From: a virus
Direction: 5' to 3' (one strand)
DNA: 26,119 bases
Virus record (IMG/VR): IMGVR_UViG_3300017782_000189
Coordinates: 1-26,119 of that record
The notes beneath the pieces are model-generated. The model saw nothing but the letters and a program-made list of their open reading frames with translations, had not been told where the DNA came from and searched no databases. Below, piece by piece: positions 5,093 to 20,942 of the stretch. Positions within the stretch are counted from its first letter, which is position 1, and each line of letters begins with the position of its first letter. The position numbers were made by a program, and so were the translations under genes.

Positions 5093-6646
5093 ATGTCAGA
5101 CGCAATAGTCAAGAACCTAAGCTTTGGTAACGAAGCTAAGGATCAAATATTTAAAGGTATAGAAAAACTCACAAAAGCTGTTAGCTCCACACTTGGAGCT
5201 AGCGGTAAATGTGTAATCTTAGAGGATTCAAGCGGTAGTCCTATTATTACTAAAGATGGTGTAACTGTAGCAGATTCAATTATATTGCTAGACCCTGTAG
5301 AAAACATGGGTTGTACACTACTTAAAGAAGCCGCTAGAAAAACAGTAAAAGAAGCAGGTGATGGAACTACCACTGCAACTGTTCTTTCACATTCCATTTT
5401 ATTAAATGCTTATAGTGTTTTAGATTCTAAAAATGGTAGACAAATAAAAGAAGGTATAAACACAGGCGTATCTAAAATTATAAAAGAATTAGAAAAAAAT
5501 TCTTTATCTGTAAAAGGAGATCATATAAATAATGTTGCAACTATAGCAACAAACAATGATAAAGAGCTTGGTTCTTTAATAGCTGATGCTTTTAAAAACG
5601 TAGGTGATACAGGTTTAGTTGTTATGGAACCATCATCAATAGGTGAAACAAAAGTAGATATAGTTGAAGGTGTAGAATACAACAAAGGTTTAGTTCACCC
5701 TAACTTTATAAACAATAAAGAAAAAGGTATAGCAGAACTTGAAAATCCATTAATTTTAATTATGGATTCTAAAGTTGAATCAATAAGACAGATTCAACCT
5801 GTTTTAGAGTATGTTATAAAAGAAAAACATCCTTTACTTATTATAGGTGAAATAGAAGATAACGTATTATCTGCTTTACTTATGAATAAAATGAAGGGTA
5901 ATATAAAAATAAATGTTTTAGATCCACCTGCTTTTGGTTTAAGAAGAAAAGAAATATTAGAAGATCTTTCTCTTTTAACCGGTGCAGTTGTTGTTAATGA
6001 AAATCTAGGTGATAATTTAGATTCTATAAAAACAGAATATTTAGGATCATGTCTTAAGGTTTCGACAGAAGTTGATAAATCAATAATAAGAGTTGAATCA
6101 GGTAATGAAGAGGTTGAAGCAATTATAAAAGACATTAAAGATAAATTAAAAAAGAAAAATAAAGAGCACGTAAGAATAGGTTTAGAACATAGACTAGGTA
6201 GATTAAGTGCTAAAGTAGCTGTTGTAAAAGTAGGTGCTAATTCTGATTTAGAATTAAAAGAAAAAACAGATAGAGTAGAAGATGCTATATGTGCTACAAA
6301 AGCTGCTATAAAAGAAGGTATTGTTTCTGGAGGTGGTATAGCTCTTTTAAATTCTTCAAAAGTATTAAATAAAAATAATATAGGTGAAAATATATTATAC
6401 AATGCTATTAAAGCTCCTTTTAATACTATATTAATAAACGCAGGTATTAAAGCTAATGAACCTAAAAAAGAAGGTTATGGCTTAAACGTTATAACGGGTG
6501 AAACAGTAGACATGATTAAATCAGGTATTATTGATCCGCTGCTTGTAACTAAAAGCGCTTTAACAAATGCGGCCTCTGTAGCTACAACAATACTATCAAC
6601 TGATTGTGTAATTAATAATATTAGAAATTATGAAAGCAATAGGTAG
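5093..6646 (+). CDS. groEL: Phage-encoded GroEL-type chaperonin (Hsp60)
   Basis: 517 aa, group I chaperonin that folds proteins in an ATP-driven double-ring cage. Equatorial motifs are intact: ITKDGVTVAD with Asp55, GDGTTTATVL with Asp90, and VEDA with Asp397, corresponding to E. coli Asp52, Asp87 and catalytic Asp398; SGGGIALLN follows near residue 413. The apical domain is diverged but full length. The C-terminus ends NNIRNYESNR and lacks the Gly-Gly-Met tail of host GroEL, so the cavity floor should differ. It overlaps groES by 17 bases, in the order groEL-groES, opposite to the usual bacterial operon. Likely clients are capsid or tail proteins. The leader is aaatttaattaaatt. Family call very strong; an active ATPase is inferred from the intact aspartates. 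Confidence 0.96.
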   Translation: MSDAIVKNLSFGNEAKDQIFKGIEKLTKAVSSTLGASGKCVILEDSSGSPIITKDGVTVADSIILLDPVENMGCTLLKEAARKTVKEAGDGTTTATVLSHSILLNAYSVLDSKNGRQIKEGINTGVSKIIKELEKNSLSVKGDHINNVATIATNNDKELGSLIADAFKNVGDTGLVVMEPSSIGETKVDIVEGVEYNKGLVHPNFINNKEKGIAELENPLILIMDSKVESIRQIQPVLEYVIKEKHPLLIIGEIEDNVLSALLMNKMKGNIKINVLDPPAFGLRRKEILEDLSLLTGAVVVNENLGDNLDSIKTEYLGSCLKVSTEVDKSIIRVESGNEEVEAIIKDIKDKLKKKNKEHVRIGLEHRLGRLSAKVAVVKVGANSDLELKEKTDRVEDAICATKAAIKEGIVSGGGIALLNSSKVLNKNNIGENILYNAIKAPFNTILINAGIKANEPKKEGYGLNVITGETVDMIKSGIIDPLLVTKSALTNAASVATTILSTDCVINNIRNYESNR

Positions 6647-7933: not shown

Positions 7934-7946
7934 AACAATATAAAAA

Positions 7947-9725: not shown

Positions 9726-10070
9726 ATGGCATTTAAAATAAATCCTCCTTTTGACAAAGAATTAATGAGCCTTTCTATTTTTGAAAGAGACATGGAAGGA
9801 GATCCGGTTTATGCTAGAACAATAAGAAATGGTGCTATTATAATGAATGAAGATAATGATGAAGCTCAAAAAGTAAATACATTGTCTCATGAAATTATTC
9901 ATAAGCGCCAATTTTTAGATGAAGCTAGAAAACCTGGAACAGGTTTAGACTATGATGAAAAATACGCGTATTATAAAGGTAAAAAATATTCTTTAAAAAG
10001 AATGGAAAAATCACACCCTTCTGAACCTTGGGAAAAACCAGCATATAAAAACGAAATAAAAACAGTATAA
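9726..10070 (+). CDS. HExxH mini-metallopeptidase-like protein
   Basis: 114 aa from ATG 9726 (MAFKINPPFD), one base after the preceding stop. A longer frame from 9669 would overlap the 51-aa gene and is less likely. The zincin motif HEIIHKRQ sits at His55-Glu56-x-x-His59, with Gln62 giving HExxHxxQ as in DUF4157-type domains. The region after it (LDYDEKYAYYKGKKY, then SEPWEKPAY) matches a conserved YWKGxxY...PWExEA layout I recall from small marine phage proteins. A Glu in PWEK or upstream could be the third zinc ligand. No membrane segment. Peptidase activity is inferred from the motif only; the target is unknown. Phage maturation, lysis or host attack are all possible. Confidence 0.7.
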   Translation: MAFKINPPFDKELMSLSIFERDMEGDPVYARTIRNGAIIMNEDNDEAQKVNTLSHEIIHKRQFLDEARKPGTGLDYDEKYAYYKGKKYSLKRMEKSHPSEPWEKPAYKNEIKTV

Positions 10071-10074
10071 AAAA

Positions 10075-10917
10075 ATGGATGAAAATAATAAAAAAGTAGG
10101 TAAAAAACCTGCTCAATACAAAAAATACCCTGCTAAATATAAAGAGTATGGTGGATCAGGTAAGGGAGTTGAAGATTCTGAAACAGAATATAATCCTGTA
10201 CCAGATATAGAAGCTGGAAAAGGAGAAGGTTCAGGTAAAGTAAAAGGTGCTGCAGATTTCAAAGGAGGTCTTCACGCTAAAAATACCAAACACTCAGAAA
10301 GCGGTGAGCATTTAGGTCCTAAAAAAATGGGTTATGCCCAAACTTGGGGAGCTGCTAGAAAAAGTGGTGCAGCAAGAGGAGCAGCTGCAGTTGCTAAAGT
10401 ACTAGGTGCAGCAGATCCAAACCCAAAAGATCCTAATCATACACATAGTGGAGTAGAAATTGGATCAGGAGCTACAAATGAATTAGAAGGAGTAACGCTT
10501 AAACCGAAAAAAAATGTAGCTTATAAAACATATCAGGCTAAAGATTATTCAAAACGTTTGCCTGATACTGAAAGAAAAGTGCCATCCGCAAGCGGTCCTA
10601 AGACTGCGGTAGTTAAAAACTATGAAACAAGTACTTTTATGACACCATTTTCAGATAGTAATACATTAAAAGGAAGTCATATGAACGTTCCTAGAAATAG
10701 TGGTTTTAGCTCTGGCAATCCTCAAAACAAATCAGATAGAGCAAACATGATAAACGAGTTCACTGACTTTATGGGCAAATCTACTAGCTCACCTAGGGCT
10801 GTTAAACAAAAATTAAACGAGATGAAAGCAGGTGATAAAGGAGGTCTTTTGTCAGATATTGAGTTTTACGGTTCTGGTAAAAAGAAACATGCTAAAAAAC
10901 ACCATAATAAAAAATAA
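10075..10917 (+). CDS. Basic low-complexity protein, unknown (virion candidate)
   Basis: 280 aa, not recognised. It is strongly Lys/Gly/Ser/Ala-rich: a KKYPAKYKEYGGSGKG start, an alanine-rich helix (ARKSGAARGAAAVAKVLGAA at about 100-120), a long polar linker, a possible helical segment (RANMINEFTDFMGKS, then RAVKQKLNEMKAGDKGG), and a basic tail KKKHAKKHHNKK. No motif of an enzyme is seen. The composition fits a DNA- or capsid-associated virion protein, possibly intrinsically disordered. It ends in TAATG, overlapping the holin by one base. Confidence 0.6.
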   Translation: MDENNKKVGKKPAQYKKYPAKYKEYGGSGKGVEDSETEYNPVPDIEAGKGEGSGKVKGAADFKGGLHAKNTKHSESGEHLGPKKMGYAQTWGAARKSGAARGAAAVAKVLGAADPNPKDPNHTHSGVEIGSGATNELEGVTLKPKKNVAYKTYQAKDYSKRLPDTERKVPSASGPKTAVVKNYETSTFMTPFSDSNTLKGSHMNVPRNSGFSSGNPQNKSDRANMINEFTDFMGKSTSSPRAVKQKLNEMKAGDKGGLLSDIEFYGSGKKKHAKKHHNKK

Positions 10918-11414: not shown

Positions 11415-11663
11415 ATGAGTAAAGAAATTAAAAAATTAGACGAACAAGAATTAAAAAAAGTAAAAGAACAACAAGACAAACTAAATGGTTTATTAGTTAA
11501 CATTGGTGTTTTAGAATCTCAAAAACATAGCTTACTACATCAGTTGGCTGAAGAAAATAAAGTTATTGAGGAAACTAAAAAAGAATTAGAAGAAAAATAC
11601 GGTGCTATAAATATTAATTTAGCAGACGGATCTTTTGAGGATATAGAAAAAGAAAGTGAGTAA
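11415..11663 (+). CDS. Small coiled-coil protein
   Basis: 82 aa, mostly one long heptad-bearing helix (residues about 5-62) with KVKEQQDKLNGLLVNIGVLE then a Glu/Lys stretch, closing with LEEKYGAININLADGSFED. This layout of a helical hairpin plus KYG-xINI-DG tail is one I recall from small marine phage proteins of unknown function. Leader ttaaattaaattaag. It overlaps the next gene by 8 bases (GTG at 11656). Likely a structural or assembly factor. Confidence 0.75.
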   Translation: MSKEIKKLDEQELKKVKEQQDKLNGLLVNIGVLESQKHSLLHQLAEENKVIEETKKELEEKYGAININLADGSFEDIEKESE

Positions 11664-11883
11664 TGTAGTAAGAAAAATCAGTATTGGTTCTGACTATAAA
11701 AATGATGCAATGCATTATGCTATAGGTCAGCCAGTATATGGTGGTCATGAAATTTCTCATATTTTATATGAAGAGTCTGACAATTCTTATAACATTTATA
11801 TTAAAAAAAACAAAGAGATATTGCCATGGAAGAAGTTTAATTCTAACATGGCTATATCTATTGAGTATGACTTAGAGTACTAA
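11656..11883 (+). CDS. Small conserved phage protein (GSDYKNDAMHY family type)
   Basis: 75 aa starting at GTG 11656 inside the upstream gene; no in-frame ATG precedes the conserved opening RKISIGSDYKNDAMHYAIGQ. A beta-rich body follows, with IYIKKNKEILPWKKFNSN and a close in AISIEYDLEY. I recall the same pattern (GSDYKxxMxYxxGQ ... WKxFN ... ISIEYDxxF) in related phages, next to the GroES-like gene as here. Function unknown. The stop overlaps the next ATG by one base. Confidence 0.75.
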   Translation: MSNVVRKISIGSDYKNDAMHYAIGQPVYGGHEISHILYEESDNSYNIYIKKNKEILPWKKFNSNMAISIEYDLEY

Positions 11884-12107
11884 TGAACAGCTTATATGAT
11901 TTTATAGTAAAGCCTTTGGGTGAAACATATAACAACGAAGTTAAAATTAATGATAAATCTCTTATTTTAAATACTAAAGTTGAAGAACATAAGTTTGTTA
12001 ACAACTACGCTAAAGTTATAGCTACACCAAAAGCTTTTGCTTGCCCTATAAGAGTGGATGATATAATAGTTATACATCACAATGTTTTAGAAGATGGTAT
12101 GACATGA
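11883..12107 (+). CDS. N-terminal part of a frameshifted conserved phage protein
   Basis: 74 aa: MNSLYDFIVKPLGETYNNEV, then LILNTKVEEHKFVNNYAKVI, RVDDIIVIHHNV and an end, LEDGMT, that no longer matches. The family, as I recall it, is a single protein of about 200 aa with a GroES-like beta start (xGDxVIVHHNVF) continuing into RRWYDMKG. Here the frame shifts at 12085-12088. Reading that four-T run as five restores HHNVFRRWYDMKG directly into the next frame, where the second half is intact. The natural product is therefore a 201-aa protein spanning 11883-12487, broken either in the phage or in this sequence. Confidence 0.72.
   Translation: MNSLYDFIVKPLGETYNNEVKINDKSLILNTKVEEHKFVNNYAKVIATPKAFACPIRVDDIIVIHHNVLEDGMT
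12085..12088 (+). other. Frameshift point: missing T in a T-run, or -1 slippage site
   Basis: Zero frame reads AAT GTT TTA GAA GAT, ending TGA at 12105. Slipping back by one base gives TTT AGA AGA TGG TAT GAC ATG AAG, that is FRRWYDMK, which joins the two halves without loss. The site is a homopolymer, typical of sequencing errors, but it also offers TTTTA for slippage of a Leu tRNA from TTA to TTT. It is not a canonical heptamer. Confidence 0.7.
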
Positions 12108-12487
12108 AGGGAAAACAACAGTATGGTAAAGCTTTTTTTAAAGATGATTTATTTTTTGTATCTATAGATCAAGTTTATTTATATAAAAATAATTCAAGCT
12201 GGAAATCAATTAACAACAGGTGTTTTATAAAACCTCTAGAAAACAATAATGATTTAGAGAATAAAAAAGAACAAAACCTTATTGGTATATTAAAAATAGG
12301 TAATAGTGTCTTAAAAGAGCTAGGAATAAACGAGGGAGATCTTGTAGGCTATAAACCTTACGGTGAGTATGATTTTCTTATAGACAAAGAGAGATTATAC
12401 TGTATGAAATCAAATGATATTGTAATTAAATATGGACGTCAAGGAAACGAAAAAGAATATAATCCAAGCTGGGCGTATAGCAGTTGA
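12104..12487 (+). CDS. C-terminal part of the frameshifted conserved phage protein
   Basis: 127 aa from ATG 12104 (overlap ATGA with the first half): MKGKQQYGKAFFKDDLFFVS, DQVYLYKNN, CFIKPLENN, then QNLIGILKIGNSVLKELGIN, EGDLVGYKPYGEYDFLIDKE, RLYCMKSNDIVIKYGRQGNE and the end NPSWAYSS. GDLVGYKPxxEYxFxIDxERLYxM is the second conserved half of the family. The internal ATG corresponds to a Met inside the full protein, so independent initiation is not needed to explain the frame, though it could rescue translation. It overlaps the next gene by 56 bases. Confidence 0.72.
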   Translation: MKGKQQYGKAFFKDDLFFVSIDQVYLYKNNSSWKSINNRCFIKPLENNNDLENKKEQNLIGILKIGNSVLKELGINEGDLVGYKPYGEYDFLIDKERLYCMKSNDIVIKYGRQGNEKEYNPSWAYSS

Positions 12488-12707
12488 AGAATTAATTAAA
12501 GTTGCTAAAGAGCCAATTATAGATTTTGGACCCGATATATCTGCAGATCGTTTAAAAAACGCTGCTGCTACAAAAAAACTTTGTATTATGGATGCTTTTG
12601 AAATAACCACTAGAATACAAGAAGAAGAAGATATATTAAACGAAAAACCTAAAGAAGTTAAAGAAGAAAAAAGTTTTAAAGGTTTTGCAGAAGGAAGATC
12701 TAAATAA
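12432..12707 (+). CDS. Candidate small terminase subunit or packaging factor
   Basis: 91 aa, predominantly helical: NIIQAGRIAVEELIKVAKEP, DISADRLKNAAATKKLCIMD, AFEITTRIQEEEDILNE, then a charged tail ending GFAEGRSK. The body resembles a conserved protein that precedes terL in related phages. Position directly before terL (one-base overlap) and size make a TerS role likely, but no helix-turn-helix is certain. It begins 56 bases inside the preceding gene, which is long for this window; both ends look conserved, so the overlap appears real. Leader tgtaattaaat. Confidence 0.6.
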   Translation: MDVKETKKNIIQAGRIAVEELIKVAKEPIIDFGPDISADRLKNAAATKKLCIMDAFEITTRIQEEEDILNEKPKEVKEEKSFKGFAEGRSK

Positions 12708-14917
12708 TGTACGAGCAAAATTTATATAAAATTTTACCCGATTATATTAAGCCTAAAATTCTTAAAAGGATGAACAGGTATAATAAATGGGAGTACGGAT
12801 ATAACAAAGAACATGATTTAATTGTTATAAGTAAAGATGGAACTGTTGGGCAAGTTATAGAAATACAAAACCTAGCAATTGGTTTACCATTACAAAAAAA
12901 TATAACTAAATTTGAATCTAACAAATGGGAGTTTACTACATTACCTAATTCGTTTAAAAATATTAAAACAATATTTGATTGGGAGCAATATGATGTCGAT
13001 TTTAAAGAACAGTGGTATGATTACATTGATCAGCAATTTGAATACAGAGATGAGGGTTTTTGGTTTTACAACAAAGATGTTGCAACTTATATTACTGGTA
13101 CTCATTACATGTACTTGCAGTGGTCCAAGATTGATGTTGGGAAACCAGATTATAGAGAAGCCAATAGATTATTCTTTATATTCTGGGAAGCTTGTAAAGC
13201 AGATAAACGTTGCTATGGAATGGCCTACCTCAAAAACAGACGGTCTGGTTTTTCGTTCATGGCATCAGGAGAAGTTGTCAACTTGGCAACCATCTCTAGT
13301 GATTCAAGATATGGAATATTATCTAAAACAGGACCAGATGCTAAAACAATGTTTACCGACAAAGTTGTACCCATATCCGTCAACTACCCTTTTTTCTTTA
13401 AACCAATACAAGACGGTATGGACCGTCCAAAAACAGAACTTGCCTACAGAGTACCTGCAAGTAAATTTACTAGAAGAAAAATAATAGCTAATGAAAAAGA
13501 AGCAGAGCTTCAAGGATTAGATACAACTATTGATTGGAAAAATACTGGAGATAATAGTTATGATGGTGAAAAATTAAAACTATTAGTACACGACGAAAGT
13601 GGTAAGTGGGAAAGGCCTAACAATATTCTTAATAACTGGAGAGTTACTAAAACTTGTTTACGATTAGGTTCTAGAATTATAGGTAAGTGTATGATGGGGT
13701 CAACGAGTAATGCTCTTGACAAAGGAGGAGATAACTTTAAAAAACTTTATTATGATTCAGACGTCACACAAAGAAATGCCAACGGACAAACTCGCTCTGG
13801 ATTATATTCTCTGTTCATACCTATGGAGTGGAACTACGAAGGATATATTGATTCTTATGGGTTACCTGTCTTCGATACCCCATCTAAACCTGTCAAAGGT
13901 GCACAAGATGTCAAAATTGATACAGGCGTCATCGAATACTGGCAAAACGAAGTTGATGGTTTAAAACAAGATCAAGATGCTTTAAATGAATTTTATAGAC
14001 AGTTTCCAAGAACAGAGGAACATGCTTTTAGAGATGAAGCTAAATCATCTTTATTTAATCTAACTAAAATTTACGAGCAAATAGACTGGAACGCAGATAT
14101 AAAACATAGCACATTAGTTACTCAAGGTTCTTTTCAGTGGAAAGGAGGTATTAAAGATACAGAAGTTGTTTTTGCACCTAGCAAGCAAGGAAGGTTTTAT
14201 ATAACATGGGTTCCACCTATAAAATTACAAAACAATTTAATAGTTAAAAACGGTATTAAATATCCCGGTAATGAAAATGTAGGTGCGTTTGGATGTGACA
14301 GTTATGACATATCTGGTACAGTAGACAGAAGAGGATCAAACGGCGCGTTGCACGGTTTAACTTCTTTTAGTATGTTAGATGTACCACCTAATCATTTTTT
14401 CTTAGAATATATAGCACGACCTCAAACTGCAGAAATATTTTTTGAAGATGTTTTAATGGCTTGTGTGTTTTACGGTATGCCAATACTTGCAGAAAATAAT
14501 AAACCTAGATTATTATATCATTTTAAAAGAAGAGGTTATAGAGGCTTTTCTATGAATAGACCTGATAAAATTTATAATAAATTATCTGTAACAGAAAGAG
14601 AAATAGGTGGTATACCTAACTCAAGTGAAGACATTAAGCAAGCACATGCTGCGGCTATAGAATCTTACATAGAAACTTATGTTGGTTATAAAGCGGATGG
14701 TTATGGAGATGTTTATTTTCAAAGAACATTAGATGATTGGTCTAAGTTTAATATAAACAATAGAACAACACATGATGCTTCTATAAGTTCAGGGCTAGCA
14801 ATAATGGCTTGTAATAAACACAGATATAAACCTGTACCTAAAAGAATTATAACTCAATATGATTTAGGTATAAAAAAATATAATAATTCTGGTGATATTT
14901 CAAAAATAATACAATAA
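12707..14917 (+). CDS. terL: Terminase large subunit
   Basis: 736 aa, DNA-packaging motor with ATPase and nuclease halves. The ATPase half has a diverged Walker A, LKNRRSGFSFMAS at about residues 172-184, of the RxGxS type rather than GxxGKS, and Walker B LLVHDESGKW near 290. The segment FYRQFPRTEEHAFRDE near 430-443 is a strong terminase signature. The nuclease half begins with GAFGCDSYDISGT around 526-538, with an acidic cluster expected to bind metal. The start overlaps the upstream stop (TAATG). It is followed immediately by portal. Length and order match crAss-like phages. Very confident as TerL. Confidence 0.93.
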   Translation: MYEQNLYKILPDYIKPKILKRMNRYNKWEYGYNKEHDLIVISKDGTVGQVIEIQNLAIGLPLQKNITKFESNKWEFTTLPNSFKNIKTIFDWEQYDVDFKEQWYDYIDQQFEYRDEGFWFYNKDVATYITGTHYMYLQWSKIDVGKPDYREANRLFFIFWEACKADKRCYGMAYLKNRRSGFSFMASGEVVNLATISSDSRYGILSKTGPDAKTMFTDKVVPISVNYPFFFKPIQDGMDRPKTELAYRVPASKFTRRKIIANEKEAELQGLDTTIDWKNTGDNSYDGEKLKLLVHDESGKWERPNNILNNWRVTKTCLRLGSRIIGKCMMGSTSNALDKGGDNFKKLYYDSDVTQRNANGQTRSGLYSLFIPMEWNYEGYIDSYGLPVFDTPSKPVKGAQDVKIDTGVIEYWQNEVDGLKQDQDALNEFYRQFPRTEEHAFRDEAKSSLFNLTKIYEQIDWNADIKHSTLVTQGSFQWKGGIKDTEVVFAPSKQGRFYITWVPPIKLQNNLIVKNGIKYPGNENVGAFGCDSYDISGTVDRRGSNGALHGLTSFSMLDVPPNHFFLEYIARPQTAEIFFEDVLMACVFYGMPILAENNKPRLLYHFKRRGYRGFSMNRPDKIYNKLSVTEREIGGIPNSSEDIKQAHAAAIESYIETYVGYKADGYGDVYFQRTLDDWSKFNINNRTTHDASISSGLAIMACNKHRYKPVPKRIITQYDLGIKKYNNSGDISKIIQ

Positions 14918-17326
14918 ATGAATATAAATTATAATAGCAACAGTGCGTTTCCTGATCAGGTTGTACCTATGGAGGAAAAGATGACGATTAAATATGGAAA
15001 GCAAGTTGCTGATGCCATACAGTCTGAATGGTTTGCTCAAGGAAGAACTAATGGTAACCGTTATTTAACTACATTTAATAATTTTCACACTAGAAGATTA
15101 TACGCAAGAGGTGAACAACCTGTGCAAAAATATAAAGATGAATTATCTATTAATGGTGATTTATCTTATTTAAATTTAGACTGGCAACCAGTGCCAATAT
15201 TATCTAAATTTGTAGATATATTAGCTAATGGTATATCAGCTAAAGATTATGATATTAAAGCTTATGCTCAAGACCCTGAGTCTATAAAGAAAAGAACAAA
15301 ATATGCAGAAGGTTTAGCTAAAGACATGTTTGCTATGGAAATACAGCAACAGGTTAAAGCTTCTACAGGTGTTGATATTTCTAATACAAATATACCACCA
15401 GAAAATTTACCTAAAACTATTGAAGAAATGGAATTGCATTTGCAGTTGTCATACAAACAATCAATAGAAATAGCAGAAGAAGAAGCTATTAGTCAAGTCT
15501 TAGCTCAAAATAAATTTGAATTATTAAAACGTAGAATAAATTTAGACTTAGTTACGCTAGGTATTGCCGCAACTAAAACTAGTTTTAATACTTCAAATGG
15601 TATTACTTTAGACTACGTAGATCCAGCTCACATGGTTTATTCTTACACAGAAGATCCTAATTTTGAAGATATATATTATGTAGGTGAAGTAAAAGCCTTA
15701 ACAATATCAGAGATTAAAAAACAGTTTCCACAAATATCAAATAAAGAACTTTCTGAATTACAAAAATATAATAGTAATAATAACTATATTTATGGATGGG
15801 GTGCGTATGATGAAAACACTGTACAGGTATTATATTTTGAATATAAAACTTATATGGATCAAGTTTTTAAATTAAAACAAACTGATTCTGGTTTAGAAAA
15901 AATATTAGAAAAACCTGATACATTTAATCCCCCAGCTAATGATAATTTTGATAGAGTTTCAAGAAGTATAGAGGTATTATTTCACGGCGTAAAAGTTTTA
16001 GGCACTAACACTATGTTAAAATGGGAGTTAGCTGAAAACATGACAAGACCTTTTGCTGATACAACTAAGGTAGAAATGAATTATGCTATATCTGCACCAA
16101 GGATGTATAAAGGTAGAATAGAATCTTTAGTTACTAAGACTATGGGTTTTGCAGATATGATTCAACTAACTCATTTAAAACTACAACAAGTATTATCTAG
16201 GATGGTACCAGATGGTGTATTTTTAGATATGGATGGTTTAGCCGAAGTTGATCTTGGTAACGGTACTAATTATAATCCTGCAGAAGCTTTAAACATGTAC
16301 TTCCAAACAGGTTCTGTTGTAGGTAGATCACTAACACAAGACGGTGAATTAAACAGAGGTAAAGTACCTGTTCAAGAATTAGCATCTTCTGCTGGTCAAG
16401 CAAAAATAAGTGCTTTAATATCTACATACAATTATTATTTACAAATGATAAGAGATGTAACCGGTCTTAATGAAGCTAGAGACGGTAGTTTACCTGACAA
16501 AGATACATTAGTAGGATTACAAAAAATTGCGGCTCAACAATCGAACATAGCAACTAAACATGTTAATAATGCTAGTCTTTATTTAACATTAAGAATATGT
16601 GAAAATATTTCTAAAAAAATTGCTGATGCTTTAGAGTTTCCTTTAACAGCTAACTCTTTGATGGAAAGTATTTTGGTTTATAATACACAAACATTAAATG
16701 AAATTAAAAACTTATCTCTTCATGATTTTGGTATATTCTTAGAATTAGAACCAGATGAAGAAGAAAAAGCAAAATTAGAACAAAATATACAGGTAGCTTT
16801 GCAATCTGGTGGTATAGAACTAGAAGACGCTATAGATTTAAGACAAATTAAAAATTTAAAACTTGCAAATCAAATGCTAAAACAAAGGCGTAGGTTAAAG
16901 CAAGAAAGAGATCAGAAGGTACAGCAAGCAAACATGCAAGCTCAAGCCGATGCAAATGCTCTGTTAGCTGAAAAAACAGCTATGGCTGAAGTACAAAAAC
17001 AACAAGTATTAACTGAACAAAAAGTTAATATAGAACAAGCTAAGTCACAGTTTGAAATACAAAGAATGCAAACAGAGGCTGAAATAAAACGTATGCTTAT
17101 GGCTGAAGAATTTAACTATAACGTTGAATTAGCTAGAGCAAATAGACAGACAGAGTCTTTAAAAGAAAAAGAAATAGAAGATAGAAAAGATAAAAGAATC
17201 AAAATGGAGGGTACTCAACAAAGTGAGATGATACAACAACGTCAAACTGATGGGCCACCTAAAAACTTTGAATCAAGCAACGATAGCATAGGAGATTTTG
17301 GATTAGAAGCTTTTTCTCCTAAATAA
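14918..17326 (+). CDS. Portal protein
   Basis: 802 aa, the dodecameric portal at one capsid vertex through which DNA is packaged. N-terminal GDLSYLNLDWQPVPILSKFV and DILANGISAKDYDIKAY match the conserved opening of large portals in crAss-like and related phages. The mid-part holds wing/stem segments, for example DYVDPAHMVYSYTEDPNFED. Residues about 640-760 form a long Gln/Glu/Lys-rich helix (KQRRRLKQERDQKVQQ onward), likely the barrel/coiled-coil crown. It starts immediately after the TerL stop. No fusion or truncation seen. Confidence 0.9.
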   Translation: MNINYNSNSAFPDQVVPMEEKMTIKYGKQVADAIQSEWFAQGRTNGNRYLTTFNNFHTRRLYARGEQPVQKYKDELSINGDLSYLNLDWQPVPILSKFVDILANGISAKDYDIKAYAQDPESIKKRTKYAEGLAKDMFAMEIQQQVKASTGVDISNTNIPPENLPKTIEEMELHLQLSYKQSIEIAEEEAISQVLAQNKFELLKRRINLDLVTLGIAATKTSFNTSNGITLDYVDPAHMVYSYTEDPNFEDIYYVGEVKALTISEIKKQFPQISNKELSELQKYNSNNNYIYGWGAYDENTVQVLYFEYKTYMDQVFKLKQTDSGLEKILEKPDTFNPPANDNFDRVSRSIEVLFHGVKVLGTNTMLKWELAENMTRPFADTTKVEMNYAISAPRMYKGRIESLVTKTMGFADMIQLTHLKLQQVLSRMVPDGVFLDMDGLAEVDLGNGTNYNPAEALNMYFQTGSVVGRSLTQDGELNRGKVPVQELASSAGQAKISALISTYNYYLQMIRDVTGLNEARDGSLPDKDTLVGLQKIAAQQSNIATKHVNNASLYLTLRICENISKKIADALEFPLTANSLMESILVYNTQTLNEIKNLSLHDFGIFLELEPDEEEKAKLEQNIQVALQSGGIELEDAIDLRQIKNLKLANQMLKQRRRLKQERDQKVQQANMQAQADANALLAEKTAMAEVQKQQVLTEQKVNIEQAKSQFEIQRMQTEAEIKRMLMAEEFNYNVELARANRQTESLKEKEIEDRKDKRIKMEGTQQSEMIQQRQTDGPPKNFESSNDSIGDFGLEAFSPK

Positions 17327-17350
17327 TTACTAATTTTATAATATTATATT

Positions 17351-18568
17351 ATGTCAAACGAAACAAAAACAAATGAACCTGTTAAACAGGAAGGTGACTT
17401 TAAAATAAAGTCAAAGAAAAAAACTCCTAAAAATTTAGGTCACTTAAGTAAAAATGATGTAGCTAAAGTTGATTTAACAAAACCTAGTTCTCAAGGCGAG
17501 GTTGTACCAGATGTTATTAAGGTTGAAGTGCCTAAAGAAGAAATAAACAAAGAAGATAATGCCATTAAAGAGCCAAGCACAGAGAGTGTGGATGAAAATA
17601 AACCATCCGGAGATGTACAAGAGGTGGGAGAAACACACACCGAAAAACAAGAAACTTCCGAAGAAAGTCCTATCCAAGAAATAAAAGAAGAGGACATTGT
17701 AAAAGAAGAAATACAAAAAGAAACAATAGAAAAACCACAAGCAGTTTTACCAGAAAACATTGAAAAACTAGTAAAGTTTATGGAAGATACTGGTGGAACA
17801 GTAGAAGATTATGTAAGATTAAATCATGATTACAATAAAACTGATGATGTAACTTTACTTAATGAATACTACAAACAAACAAAACCTCATTTAAACTCAG
17901 AAGAAATTGCTTTCTTAATGGAAGATAATTTTAACTTTGACGAAGAGGTTGATGAAGCTAGAGATGTAAGAAAGAAAAAACTAGCTTTTAAAGAAGAAGT
18001 TGCAAAAGCACGTAAAGAATTAGACGTTCTTAAGGATAAATATTATCAGGAAATCAAGTTGAGACCTGGTATATCTCAAGAACAAAAAAAGGCTACGGAT
18101 TTTTTCAACCGATATAACGAGCAACAAGAGGTGATGCAGAATAACCACCAGGATTTTAAAAAGAAAACTGACGAATTGTTTAACGTCGAATTTCAAGGGT
18201 TTGATTTCGATTTAGGACAAAAAAAGTTTAGATATAAAATTTCTAATCCTAAACAAGTTGGTGAAACACAAGCTGACATTAGTAAATTTATAAATAAATA
18301 TACTGATGACAAAGGTGTTATCACTGATACACAAGGTTATCATAAATCGCTTTACACTGCAATGAATGTAGATAAAATTGCTAATCATTTTTACGAACAA
18401 GGAAAAGCAGACGGCATTAAAAACGTTGTTAACAGTTCTAAAAATCTATCAACAGAAAACCCGAGGCAAGTTGCCGATGGAAACGTTTTCATAAACGGAT
18501 TAAAAGTAAAATCAATTAGTGGACTAGATACATCAAAACTTAAAATAAAAACAAAAAAGTTTAACTAA
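17351..18568 (+). CDS. Scaffold-like capsid assembly protein
   Basis: 405 aa between portal and major capsid gene, the usual place for scaffold. The first 130 residues are extremely Glu/Lys/Val/Pro-rich and probably disordered. A helical middle (about 135-260) has coiled-coil character (KKKLAFKEEVAKARKELDVL). The end, DGNVFINGLKVKSISGLDTS then KLKIKTKKF, resembles a basic capsid-binding helix. No protease motif is seen. Leader taatattatatt. Scaffold role inferred from position and composition. Confidence 0.75.
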   Translation: MSNETKTNEPVKQEGDFKIKSKKKTPKNLGHLSKNDVAKVDLTKPSSQGEVVPDVIKVEVPKEEINKEDNAIKEPSTESVDENKPSGDVQEVGETHTEKQETSEESPIQEIKEEDIVKEEIQKETIEKPQAVLPENIEKLVKFMEDTGGTVEDYVRLNHDYNKTDDVTLLNEYYKQTKPHLNSEEIAFLMEDNFNFDEEVDEARDVRKKKLAFKEEVAKARKELDVLKDKYYQEIKLRPGISQEQKKATDFFNRYNEQQEVMQNNHQDFKKKTDELFNVEFQGFDFDLGQKKFRYKISNPKQVGETQADISKFINKYTDDKGVITDTQGYHKSLYTAMNVDKIANHFYEQGKADGIKNVVNSSKNLSTENPRQVADGNVFINGLKVKSISGLDTSKLKIKTKKFN

Positions 18569-18586
18569 TTAAAAATTAAAATTATT

Positions 18587-20035
18587 ATGGGTGTTTTACA
18601 ACCACAATTCGGTTCGATTATTCCATCGCCGATACAACAAACACTAGCATCTAACTATCTACAATTTGATGGTGCTGCTGGTGGAAATTTTGCTCAGCAA
18701 TATTTGCCTGAGTTATACGAACAAGAAGTCGAAAGATATGGTAACAGAACTTTATCTGGATTTCTTAAAATGGTAGGAGCTGAACTTCCTATAACATCTG
18801 ATCAGGTTATCTGGTCTGAACAAAACAGATTACATATATCTTATGATAACTGTACTTCTGCTTCTGCTGCTGGTACTCTTGTAATTCCTGCTACCGCTGG
18901 AGTTACCAACGTAATATCTGCAAACCAAACAATCGTTGTTATGGACGACTTTGGTAATGAAGTTAAAGGTTTAGTTACAGTTTCTAACCCTAGTGGAGCT
19001 GGAGCTCTTGCTAGAACTATCACAATTGTTACTTATGGAGTTGCTAGTATGGCGGCTGCAGGTCTTGTAGATGGTGCTGGTAAAAAGATATTTGTTTATG
19101 GTTCTGAATATCAAAAAGGATCTACAACTCCTAACTATGCTGTTGGTAACAATGGTTTCGTAAGTGTTGACCCTTCTTTTACTCAGTTTCAAAACAAACC
19201 TGTTATCATTAGAAGCAAATACGTAATCAACGGTTCTGACACAGCTCAGATCGGTTGGGTAGAAGTTGCTAGTGAAGACGGTACAAACGGTTACTTATGG
19301 TATTTAAAAGCTGAGTCTGAAACAAGACTAAGATTTGAAGACTACCTAGAAATGATGTGTGTTGAAGGTGAACTAGTTGGTGGTAACGCCGCTAATTTCC
19401 CTGCAGCATTACAACCAGGTGGTACTGAAGGTCTATTTGCAGCTATTCAAGCTAGAGGTAACGTAGAAGTTGGATTTAGTGCAGCTGCTGGTATAAGTGA
19501 TTTTGATGATATTCTTAAAAACTTAGACACGCAAGGAGCTATTGAAGAAAACATGCTTTTCTTAAACAGAGAAGTTTCTTTAGACTTTGATGACATGCTT
19601 GCTTCTATTTCTGCAGGTGGTTCAGGTGGAACTGCTTTTGGATTATTTGAAAACTCTGAAGAAATGGCATTGAACCTTGGGTTCAGCGGTTTCAGAAGAG
19701 GTTCTTACGATTTCTATAAAACTGACTGGAAATACCTAAACGATGCTTCTACAAGAGGTGCGATGGTTGGTCCTGCTTCTATAGAAGGAGTTTTAATCCC
19801 AGCTGGTACATCTACTGTTTATGATCAAATTCTTGGTACAAATATTAGAAGACCATTTTTACACGTTAGATATAGAGCATCACAAGCTGATGACAGACGT
19901 ATGAAATCATGGTTAACTGGTTCTGTTGGTGGAGCATTTACTTCAGATCTTGACGCTATGGAAGTTAACTTCCTATCTGAAAGATGTTTAGTAACTCAAG
20001 CTGCTAACAACTTTGTATTATTCAAAGGAGTTTAA
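18587..20035 (+). CDS. Major capsid protein (HK97-type)
   Basis: 482 aa. The opening VLQPQFGSIIPSPIQQTLAS, then FAQQYLPELYEQEVERYGNR and LSGFLKMVGAELPITSDQV with IWSEQ, matches my recollection of capsid proteins of crAss-like and related phages. SRxRASQADDRRMKSWL-type text near residue 430 and the end EVNFLSERCLVTQAANNFVL are typical late P/A-domain positions. It follows the scaffold-like gene and precedes a strong terminator, consistent with the most abundant virion protein. Leader attaaaattatt. The N-terminus lacks an obvious delta domain, consistent with a separate scaffold. Confidence 0.88.
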   Translation: MGVLQPQFGSIIPSPIQQTLASNYLQFDGAAGGNFAQQYLPELYEQEVERYGNRTLSGFLKMVGAELPITSDQVIWSEQNRLHISYDNCTSASAAGTLVIPATAGVTNVISANQTIVVMDDFGNEVKGLVTVSNPSGAGALARTITIVTYGVASMAAAGLVDGAGKKIFVYGSEYQKGSTTPNYAVGNNGFVSVDPSFTQFQNKPVIIRSKYVINGSDTAQIGWVEVASEDGTNGYLWYLKAESETRLRFEDYLEMMCVEGELVGGNAANFPAALQPGGTEGLFAAIQARGNVEVGFSAAAGISDFDDILKNLDTQGAIEENMLFLNREVSLDFDDMLASISAGGSGGTAFGLFENSEEMALNLGFSGFRRGSYDFYKTDWKYLNDASTRGAMVGPASIEGVLIPAGTSTVYDQILGTNIRRPFLHVRYRASQADDRRMKSWLTGSVGGAFTSDLDAMEVNFLSERCLVTQAANNFVLFKGV

Positions 20036-20043
20036 TTACTTTC

Positions 20044-20093
20044 AATAAAGATAAGGCCTCGTGTAAAAGTGGGGCCTTGCCTTTATTTTTTTT
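20044..20093 (+). terminator. Strong intrinsic terminator after the major capsid gene
   Basis: Stem in two parts: AATAAAG (20044-20050) pairs with CTTTATT (20081-20087), and AAGGCCTC (20053-20060) pairs with GGGGCCTT (20071-20078, one G-T pair). Only a 2x2 internal loop lies between them, the hairpin loop is 10 bases, and a T-run continues to 20093. It sits 9 bases after the capsid stop and 25 bases before the next start. Confidence 0.9.
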
Positions 20094-20117
20094 AAAACTA
20101 TTAAATTATATTATATT

Positions 20118-20942
20118 ATGGCAAAAGCTAAAAAAGTACAGTCAACTGTAGAAGCACCCGTTATGGAAGCTCCGGTTGTTGTAAAAAAAGAAATTAAAAA
20201 ACCCAAAAATACTTGGGAAATAAAAGATAGAGTATACTGGGTAACAGGTACTCATCATCCTTTAACGTTAACTATACCTAGTAAGCATACAAGAAAACAT
20301 GCTTTACTTTGGTTTGACAAAAGTTCAGGTGAACAAAGAGAGTTGCGTTATGCAACTAATCAAAACTCACCATTTGTTGATGAACAAAAAGGAGAGGTTA
20401 CATTAGGACATATAACTTTTAGAGATGGAAGTTTATTGGTTCCTAAAGAAAAACAAAACTTACAAAAATTATTATCTTTATATCACCCTATGAAAGGCGG
20501 TAGATATGCAGAAAAAGATGATGTAGCAATAGCGGTTGATGAATTACAAGATATTAATTTAGAAATTGATGCATTAAACGCGGCAAGAGAAATAGATATA
20601 GATCATGCTGAAGCAATATTAAGAGTGGAAAAAGGATCTGCAGTAAGCGAGATGAGTTCTAAAGAAATAAAAAGAGACTTAATGTTGATGGCTAAAAAAC
20701 AACCTAAAACATTTATTGCATTAGCTAATGATGAAAATGTAGTATTAAGAAACTTTGCTATTAGAGCTGTAGAAGCTAATATTATTAAAATTGCTAATGA
20801 TCAAAGAAGTTTTCATTGGGGATCTAATGATAGAAAATTAATGAGTGTTCCATTTGATGAAAACCCTTATTCTGCTTTTGCAAGTTTTTTGAAAACCGAC
20901 GAAGGTGTAGAAATTTATAGATCTATAGAAAAAAGTCTATAA
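20118..20942 (+). CDS. Conserved phage protein, probable neck/assembly factor
   Basis: 274 aa. A Lys/Val/Pro-rich N-terminus is followed by a beta-type domain (NTWEIKDRVYWVTGTHHPLT, TIPSKHTRKHALLWFD, ITFRDGSLLVP) and a charged helical C-terminal half with DLMLMAKKQPKTFIALANDE and SFHWGSNDRKLMSVPF. I recall similar proteins between capsid and ring-protein genes in related phages. No enzyme motif. Its start is 25 bases after the terminator, so expression needs readthrough or a promoter in the stem region. The stop codon overlaps the second copy of the 15-base motif. Confidence 0.65.
   Translation: MAKAKKVQSTVEAPVMEAPVVVKKEIKKPKNTWEIKDRVYWVTGTHHPLTLTIPSKHTRKHALLWFDKSSGEQRELRYATNQNSPFVDEQKGEVTLGHITFRDGSLLVPKEKQNLQKLLSLYHPMKGGRYAEKDDVAIAVDELQDINLEIDALNAAREIDIDHAEAILRVEKGSAVSEMSSKEIKRDLMLMAKKQPKTFIALANDENVVLRNFAIRAVEANIIKIANDQRSFHWGSNDRKLMSVPFDENPYSAFASFLKTDEGVEIYRSIEKSL

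Follow-up and report, generated by a model that had tools for sequence, protein, structure and literature searches.

The locus examined here raises the question of why a gene that is read through in a single frame in its relatives is divided between two short frames in one virus record, and of what its intact product might do. The window, by which we mean the whole 26,119-base virus record to which all coordinates below refer, contains a 74-residue open frame whose product ends in HHNVLEDGMT and a 127-residue open frame whose product begins with MKGKQQYG. The two share an ATGA overlap at 12104-12107 (Table 1).

Table 1. Positions in the window of the interrupted gene, of sites within it and of selected other genes
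Feature	Position	Strand	Remarks
GroEL (Cpn60) of the phage	5093..6646	+	PF00118, 189.6 bits; PHROG 5725, E 1.1e-133
Separate single-domain phage GroES, 86 aa	6630..6890	+	PF00166, 44.6 bits; PHROG 3188, E 2.8e-12
Co-chaperonin gene, first part	11883..12107	+	About 68-70 family codons, then off-frame codons and TGA
Leu-Ile-Leu codons, residues 27-29	11961..11969	+	Hydrophobic triplet in the flexible loop of domain 1 (predicted)
Frame-loss site, TTTT	12085..12088	+	TTTTT in three near-identical contigs and in one contig of 92-96% identity
Co-chaperonin gene, second part, 127-aa frame	12104..12487	+	End of GroES-like barrel 1 and whole of barrel 2 (predicted)
91-aa frame between co-chaperonin gene and terminase	12432..12707	+	No match in PHROG, and none in Pfam above cut-off
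Terminase large subunit	12707..14917	+	PHROG 6681, E 1.1e-156

The interrupted gene and its relatives

An earlier note on this DNA had proposed that the two frames are parts of one conserved, GroES-related phage gene of about 200 codons, interrupted by the loss of one base in a T-run. Profile comparison is in keeping with a single interrupted gene. The first half aligns with positions 1-70 (E 1.8e-9) and the second half with positions 92-197 (E 3.6e-7) of PHROG 13932, a family of 200 positions named 'co-chaperonin GroES', so that the halves match consecutive stretches of one profile. The intact homologue in contig L001 covers profile positions 1-197 with its residues 1-182 (E 4.2e-21), and gp089 of Cellulophaga phage phi38:1 matches the same profile at E 1.8e-82. 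With respect to family membership, the window's gene thus matches the profile lengthwise, and its frame is interrupted, ending at 12107.

The loss of one base is evident from four contigs with distinct IMG record numbers, all of which carry TTTTT where the reading frame of the window is lost, together with a single open frame. Three are nearly identical to the window at the DNA level, namely L001 (99.80% over 4532 b), L002/L167 (99.79% over 14000 b) and L003 (99.67% over 4177 b), and the fourth, L084/L170, is 96.2% identical over 4454 b and 92.5% over 6042 b. Inside the aligned blocks the T-run difference is the sole indel relative to L001, L003 and L170; relative to L167 there are three further indels, all in A-runs. 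Across 11883-12487 the window shows no substitution relative to L001 or L167 and one relative to L003 (at 12205). At the protein level, the first part is 100% identical to the intact frames of L001-L003 over residues 1-68 and 97% identical over residues 1-70, and the second part is identical over all 127 residues to residues 75-201 of one frame in L081-L083. The window holds a lone copy, short of one T, of a gene that this phage group otherwise conserves in intact form.

The alignment of L170 also reveals a jump in identity, from 92.5% over 12030-18070 to 99.2% over 18335-20426 with 18070-18335 unaligned, which suggests that a mosaic joint lies close to where the 17351-18568 gene ends, a short way ahead of the virion protein gene at 18587. 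Elsewhere in the window, 13-2790 encodes a tail-fibre-like protein of 925 residues with several central repeats of the form TFTNKSG-N-SQWTNDEGY, the last half of which matches many tail fibre families.

A wider survey indicates that unbroken versions are the rule. The viral relatives comprised 158 loci (the best 80 of 221 candidates and the best 80 of 476), in which, by eye, six contigs occur twice; the gene is unbroken in 155. In the remaining three, L032 has both parts in different frames, with the break in an A-run at another site, and L089 and L120 contain the second half alone. The 152 closed frames in L001-L158 reduce to 89 distinct proteins of 198-203 residues. A collection in which each prokaryote species is represented by one genome yielded relatives on 21 contigs, of which 18 have an unbroken frame (191-208 aa), one is cut (L307) and two show the end of the gene only (L313 and L314). 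Each of the 77 isolate-phage records, 68 of which are closely alike elemo phages, matches at least 80% of the intact query at one location, and the match is a single piece in all 60 of these records among the matches listed.

The two damaged copies are of different kinds. L032 (869-1500) carries an independent one-base run-length break, in an A-run around residue 80, and in L307 (8001-8493, from a Muriicola MAG) the stretch after residue 23 is deleted and the sequence beyond is out of frame.

Degenerate patterns for the site itself were also run against viral_contigs; both miss some spellings of the family, and the window's own record possibly lies outside the scan. The shortened site gave one match, L173, which falls outside the gene family and was set aside as a chance match rather than a second shortened copy of the co-chaperonin gene. 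Restoring the base in the pattern raised the yield to at least 120 matches, and those 120 loci (five of them, by eye, contigs already counted) are all unbroken across both halves; as this pattern selects an intact site, the result shows solely that these loci contain no other breaks.

These data also bear on whether the frames could have been two separate genes from the start, joined at an ATGA overlap. Two frames with this common overlap geometry would fit such an arrangement, but the parts align one after the other along a single family of 200 positions, and among loci containing both parts the frames differ solely in L032 and L307. No relative in which two distinct genes overlap in this way was found among the 158 viral loci, the 21 genome-contig loci or the 77 phage records (60 of them listed), so the split-gene proposal of the earlier note survives the comparison that could have overturned it. 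Given the consecutive PHROG 13932 matches and the single-frame relatives, we reject the idea of two true genes, to which we assign almost no probability.

Origin of the missing base

The earlier note had further suggested that the ribosome might slip by -1 at this site. Frame 2 does lie at -1 relative to frame 1, and both are open over 12062-12107, but the usual signals are lacking. No slippery heptamer of the form X XXY YYZ occurs in 12059-12107, which includes the dual-frame overlap. A stimulating RNA was not detected at 12090-12190, where the predicted fold (-10.3 kcal/mol, z +0.68) was equalled or bettered by 155 of 200 shuffles in a test of pseudoknot-free secondary structure. Nor is the T-run kept: T5 spells the Val/Ile-Phe codon pair in 39 of the 89 distinct relatives, and the other 50 spell it without T5. 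The two-frame arrangement is likewise not conserved, and the relatives, having one frame, need no slippage. Because the heptamer, the RNA fold and the kept T-run are all absent, and relatives are single-framed, programmed frameshifting as a means of joining the two parts is rejected as highly improbable.

We are left with an error in the sequence or its assembly and a genuine mutation, and of these we lean, with modest confidence, toward the error, in which case the living phage would retain the base and make, as its real product, the 201-residue protein of the relatives, predicted to contain two GroES-like barrels in one chain. Since one-base run differences occur elsewhere between these contigs, run-length noise or variation is present in the data. 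Specifically, the window and L167 differ over 25 kb by 37 substitutions (21 silent, 15 changing an amino acid and one outside genes) and by four one-base run-length differences in total, those in A-runs lying at 7942, 10069 and 11593. The differences at 10069 and 11593 are private to L167, with L003 (and at 11593 also L001) agreeing with the window. These run-length differences could equally be real variation.

Two further features of this comparison may be recorded. The one extra A at 11593 in L002/L167 breaks an 82-residue gene (window 11415-11663) that is intact in the window and in L003, and the gene at 10075-10917 holds seven of the 15 amino-acid-changing substitutions relative to L167, with L003 differing there at eight places.

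In terms of sequence quality, the T-run break is the sole frame break private to the window over 996-26119 when compared with L167, and no general error rate is therefore visible. A T-run of four to five bases would be an unusual trouble spot for short-read machines. The absence of substitutions over 605 bases says little about the age of the break, as the contigs compared are 99.8% identical.

A real, recent and private frameshift allele is nearly as likely as an error. Such a phage would lack a whole co-chaperonin, would make a 74-residue stub and perhaps a 127-residue piece through re-initiation at the ATGA overlap, and would survive on its own single-domain GroES or on that of its host. 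The cleanness of the window sequence elsewhere favors this possibility, as does the prediction that barrel 2 (residues about 106-186) falls entirely inside the 127-residue piece, the second part of the gene being open to coupled translation through an overlap of a kind (stop-start) that is common in the window's gene run. The window also retains its own GroES and GroEL, and broken copies exist elsewhere in L032 and L307. Nonetheless, the near-identical contigs and nearly all examined relatives are unbroken, and the break removes the end of barrel 1. The restart Met, moreover, is conserved in just 42 of the 89 relatives, which indicates that restarting is not a kept feature. As the ATG of frame 2 is in these 42 relatives simply an internal Met of the intact protein, the ATGA overlap seems to be an incidental consequence of the missing base.

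Predicted fold and chaperonin company

By sequence comparison, the GroES signal of the intact protein is weak. Neither half of the window's gene nor the intact L001 protein gives a Pfam match above cut-off; for PF00166 (GroES/Cpn10), with its curated cut-off of 21.1 bits, the window's second part scores 15.5 and L001 15.3, and a match at E 0.1 or better is found in 63 of the 89 relatives (best E 0.0018). A profile of the 89 relatives searched against PDB sequences returned no GroES at E up to 10 and four weak matches (best E 0.32), namely two BamB chains, an acyltransferase and a 'reDPBB_sym2' protein. The first part also resembles an effector family in Pfam (E 0.028), but its 14.8 bits fall short of the 25.3 required, and we regard this as chance.

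An AlphaFold2 model based on 89 relatives (mean pLDDT 82.4, pTM 0.77, mostly strand) predicts two GroES barrels arranged head to tail at about residues 1-107 and 106-186. Using VIA-align, model residues 1-101 superimpose on GroES 2c7c_O (Z 7.9, rmsd 1.8, 77 aligned) and residues 106-185 on GroES 8wuc_a (Z 7.7, rmsd 2.3, 77 aligned), both single-barrel values falling in the range under 8 in which a match may reflect a common arrangement only. The best solved match to the whole model is chain R of 7ekq, a molecule named 'Cpn20 co-chaperonin subunit' (Z 10.0, rmsd 3.9, 153 aligned, 13% identity). Foldseek E values were 2.0e-5 for this chain and 7.0e-4 for chain Q of the same entry, the two chains alone lying at or below 0.001, and at least 0.0023 for single GroES chains. 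Dehydrogenases, which have a GroES-like domain, score no more than Z 5.3 and rank below the co-chaperonins. In a comparison with predicted viral proteins, the top-ranked match is an unnamed protein of 186 residues, and the best named match is a 200-residue 'Chaperonin cpn10' of Cellulophaga phage phi18:3 (E 9.3e-13). The whole-length structural match, the weak Cpn10 signal and the family name are in mutual agreement.

The earlier note had described the protein as having a GroES-like beginning. The beginning is indeed GroES-like, but not the beginning alone, as both halves are in the predicted fold, and by sequence GroES is recognizable more in the second domain than in the first: in profile comparison with phage GroES (hhalign), barrel 2 reaches a probability of 77% and barrel 1 1.4%. 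Comparison of the two barrels with each other gave no sequence-level proof of duplication (hhalign probability 3.5%). The break in the window is predicted to cut barrel 1 at about residue 68-70 and to leave barrel 2 whole in frame 2.

The barrels also appear to differ in their loops. Residues 27-29, within a stretch of low model confidence (residues 21-40), are hydrophobic in 100, 98 and 96% of the 89 relatives, and lie at what we take to be the place of the GroEL-binding tripeptide of GroES. In the loop of domain 2 (residues 120-132) only L125 is regularly hydrophobic (98%), and there is no triplet. In proteins of the Cpn20 type, each domain carries a chaperonin-binding loop with a hydrophobic triplet.

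Existing annotation labels the gene cpn10 or GroES. The intact relative is 27-38% identical to the proteins of the listed isolate phages, and as it matches the annotated 'chaperonin Cpn10' of Calle_1, a member of the Pervagoviridae, the 'chaperonin cpn10' given among the core proteins of that family in a 2021 study (PMC8776804) is probably the same gene.

With respect to gene order, the co-chaperonin gene directly precedes the terminase gene in phi38:1 and elemoF_6-3D; in MW202828 and the window a single gene separates the two. In elemoF_6-3D (L171), GroEL and GroES are encoded on the opposite strand from the tandem gene and the terminase, whereas a single strand carries all four in the window. 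Co-occurrence was assessed in 20 records that carry the gene, most of them selected because they are long and among them the window and its near-twin G002. Nineteen encode Cpn60, and these nineteen also encode a single-domain GroES as a separate gene; the 28.5-kb record G006 is the exception. Phage phi38:1 carries GroEL, single-domain GroES and the two-barrel gene. GroEL and GroES homologues have been found together in phages (PMC7185714), Maribacter phage Panino being one for which both are reported (PMC11590407).

Taken together, this company and the predicted fold suggest that the intact protein would most likely act as a lid for the phage's own GroEL, each subunit contributing two barrels. 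The tandem protein is encoded near terminase and portal genes, and the lid might be used to fold head proteins encoded nearby. Its role as a lid, perhaps as a mixed ring with the separate phage GroES, is one that we infer from chloroplasts, where two-domain and one-domain co-chaperonins are reported to form functional mixed rings of seven domains (PMC5780408). We tentatively propose that flavobacterial phages and their uncultured relatives have a chloroplast-style set of GroEL, GroES and tandem co-chaperonin that forms a mixed lid. It is possible, and we hold it equally tentatively, that such a set solves, by convergent joining of domains, the odd/even symmetry problem of placing two-barrel units on a seven-fold ring, which chloroplasts face as well. 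If the GroEL-gripping loop is kept in barrel 1 only, barrel 2 could be a spacer or make a special contact with capsid or terminase proteins.

Whatever the origin of the break, a protein with the GroES fold could have another job, such as that of a terminase or head factor, and not cap GroEL at all. We consider this less likely, as GroEL and GroES are nearly always encoded in the same genome, domain 1 retains a flexible loop with a conserved hydrophobic triplet, and the best solved match is a co-chaperonin. The points that speak for another job are the position beside or one gene from terminase in three annotated records, the missed Pfam score (15.3 against 21.1 bits), the loop of domain 2 and the scores attained here by dehydrogenases.

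Comparison with known co-chaperonins

The break itself matters little, the cut being a lone event, other than as a warning that, in public phage records, a one-base run-length difference may make one conserved gene appear as two small frames. The intact tandem co-chaperonin is more interesting and deserves attention. The two-domain type of co-chaperonin is called unique and chloroplast-specific in PMC5780408, and we found no description of a two-domain phage co-chaperonin in the literature searched. A tandem GroES appears to exist also in phages that have their own GroEL and GroES, the gene occurring in well over a hundred public viral contigs. If the lid function holds true, these phages would offer an independent and easily handled test of two-barrel units on a seven-fold chaperonin.

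The closest counterparts of the window's gene are the PHROG 13932 members from Cellulophaga phage phi38:1 (gp089) and the Flavobacterium elemo phages, which represent the same family at full length and in the same place before terminase; the window's copy loses its frame past about residue 68-70. Phage T4 gp31 (1g31) likewise has the GroES fold (Z 6.5, rmsd 4.6, 84 aligned). It replaces GroES in T4 infection, and both proteins form heptamers, according to PMC6318259. Single-domain phage co-chaperonins such as gp31 and PHROG 3188 have one barrel per chain, whereas the tandem protein is predicted to have two.

In this respect the tandem protein more closely resembles the chloroplast Cpn20 type (7ekq chain R), in which two GroES barrels are likewise joined in one chain. 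Complexes of CPN11, CPN20 and CPN23 are also described as sitting on the Clp protease (PMC8889267). The phage protein and 7ekq chain R are 13% identical, and there is no evidence for a common origin of the phage and Cpn20 tandems; domains 1 and 2 of the phage protein are not detectably alike by profile, and its loop triplet is confined to domain 1. What the two systems share, in addition to the predicted two-barrel build, is their company, as chloroplast Cpn20 also occurs together with a single-domain co-chaperonin and Cpn60, according to PMC5780408.
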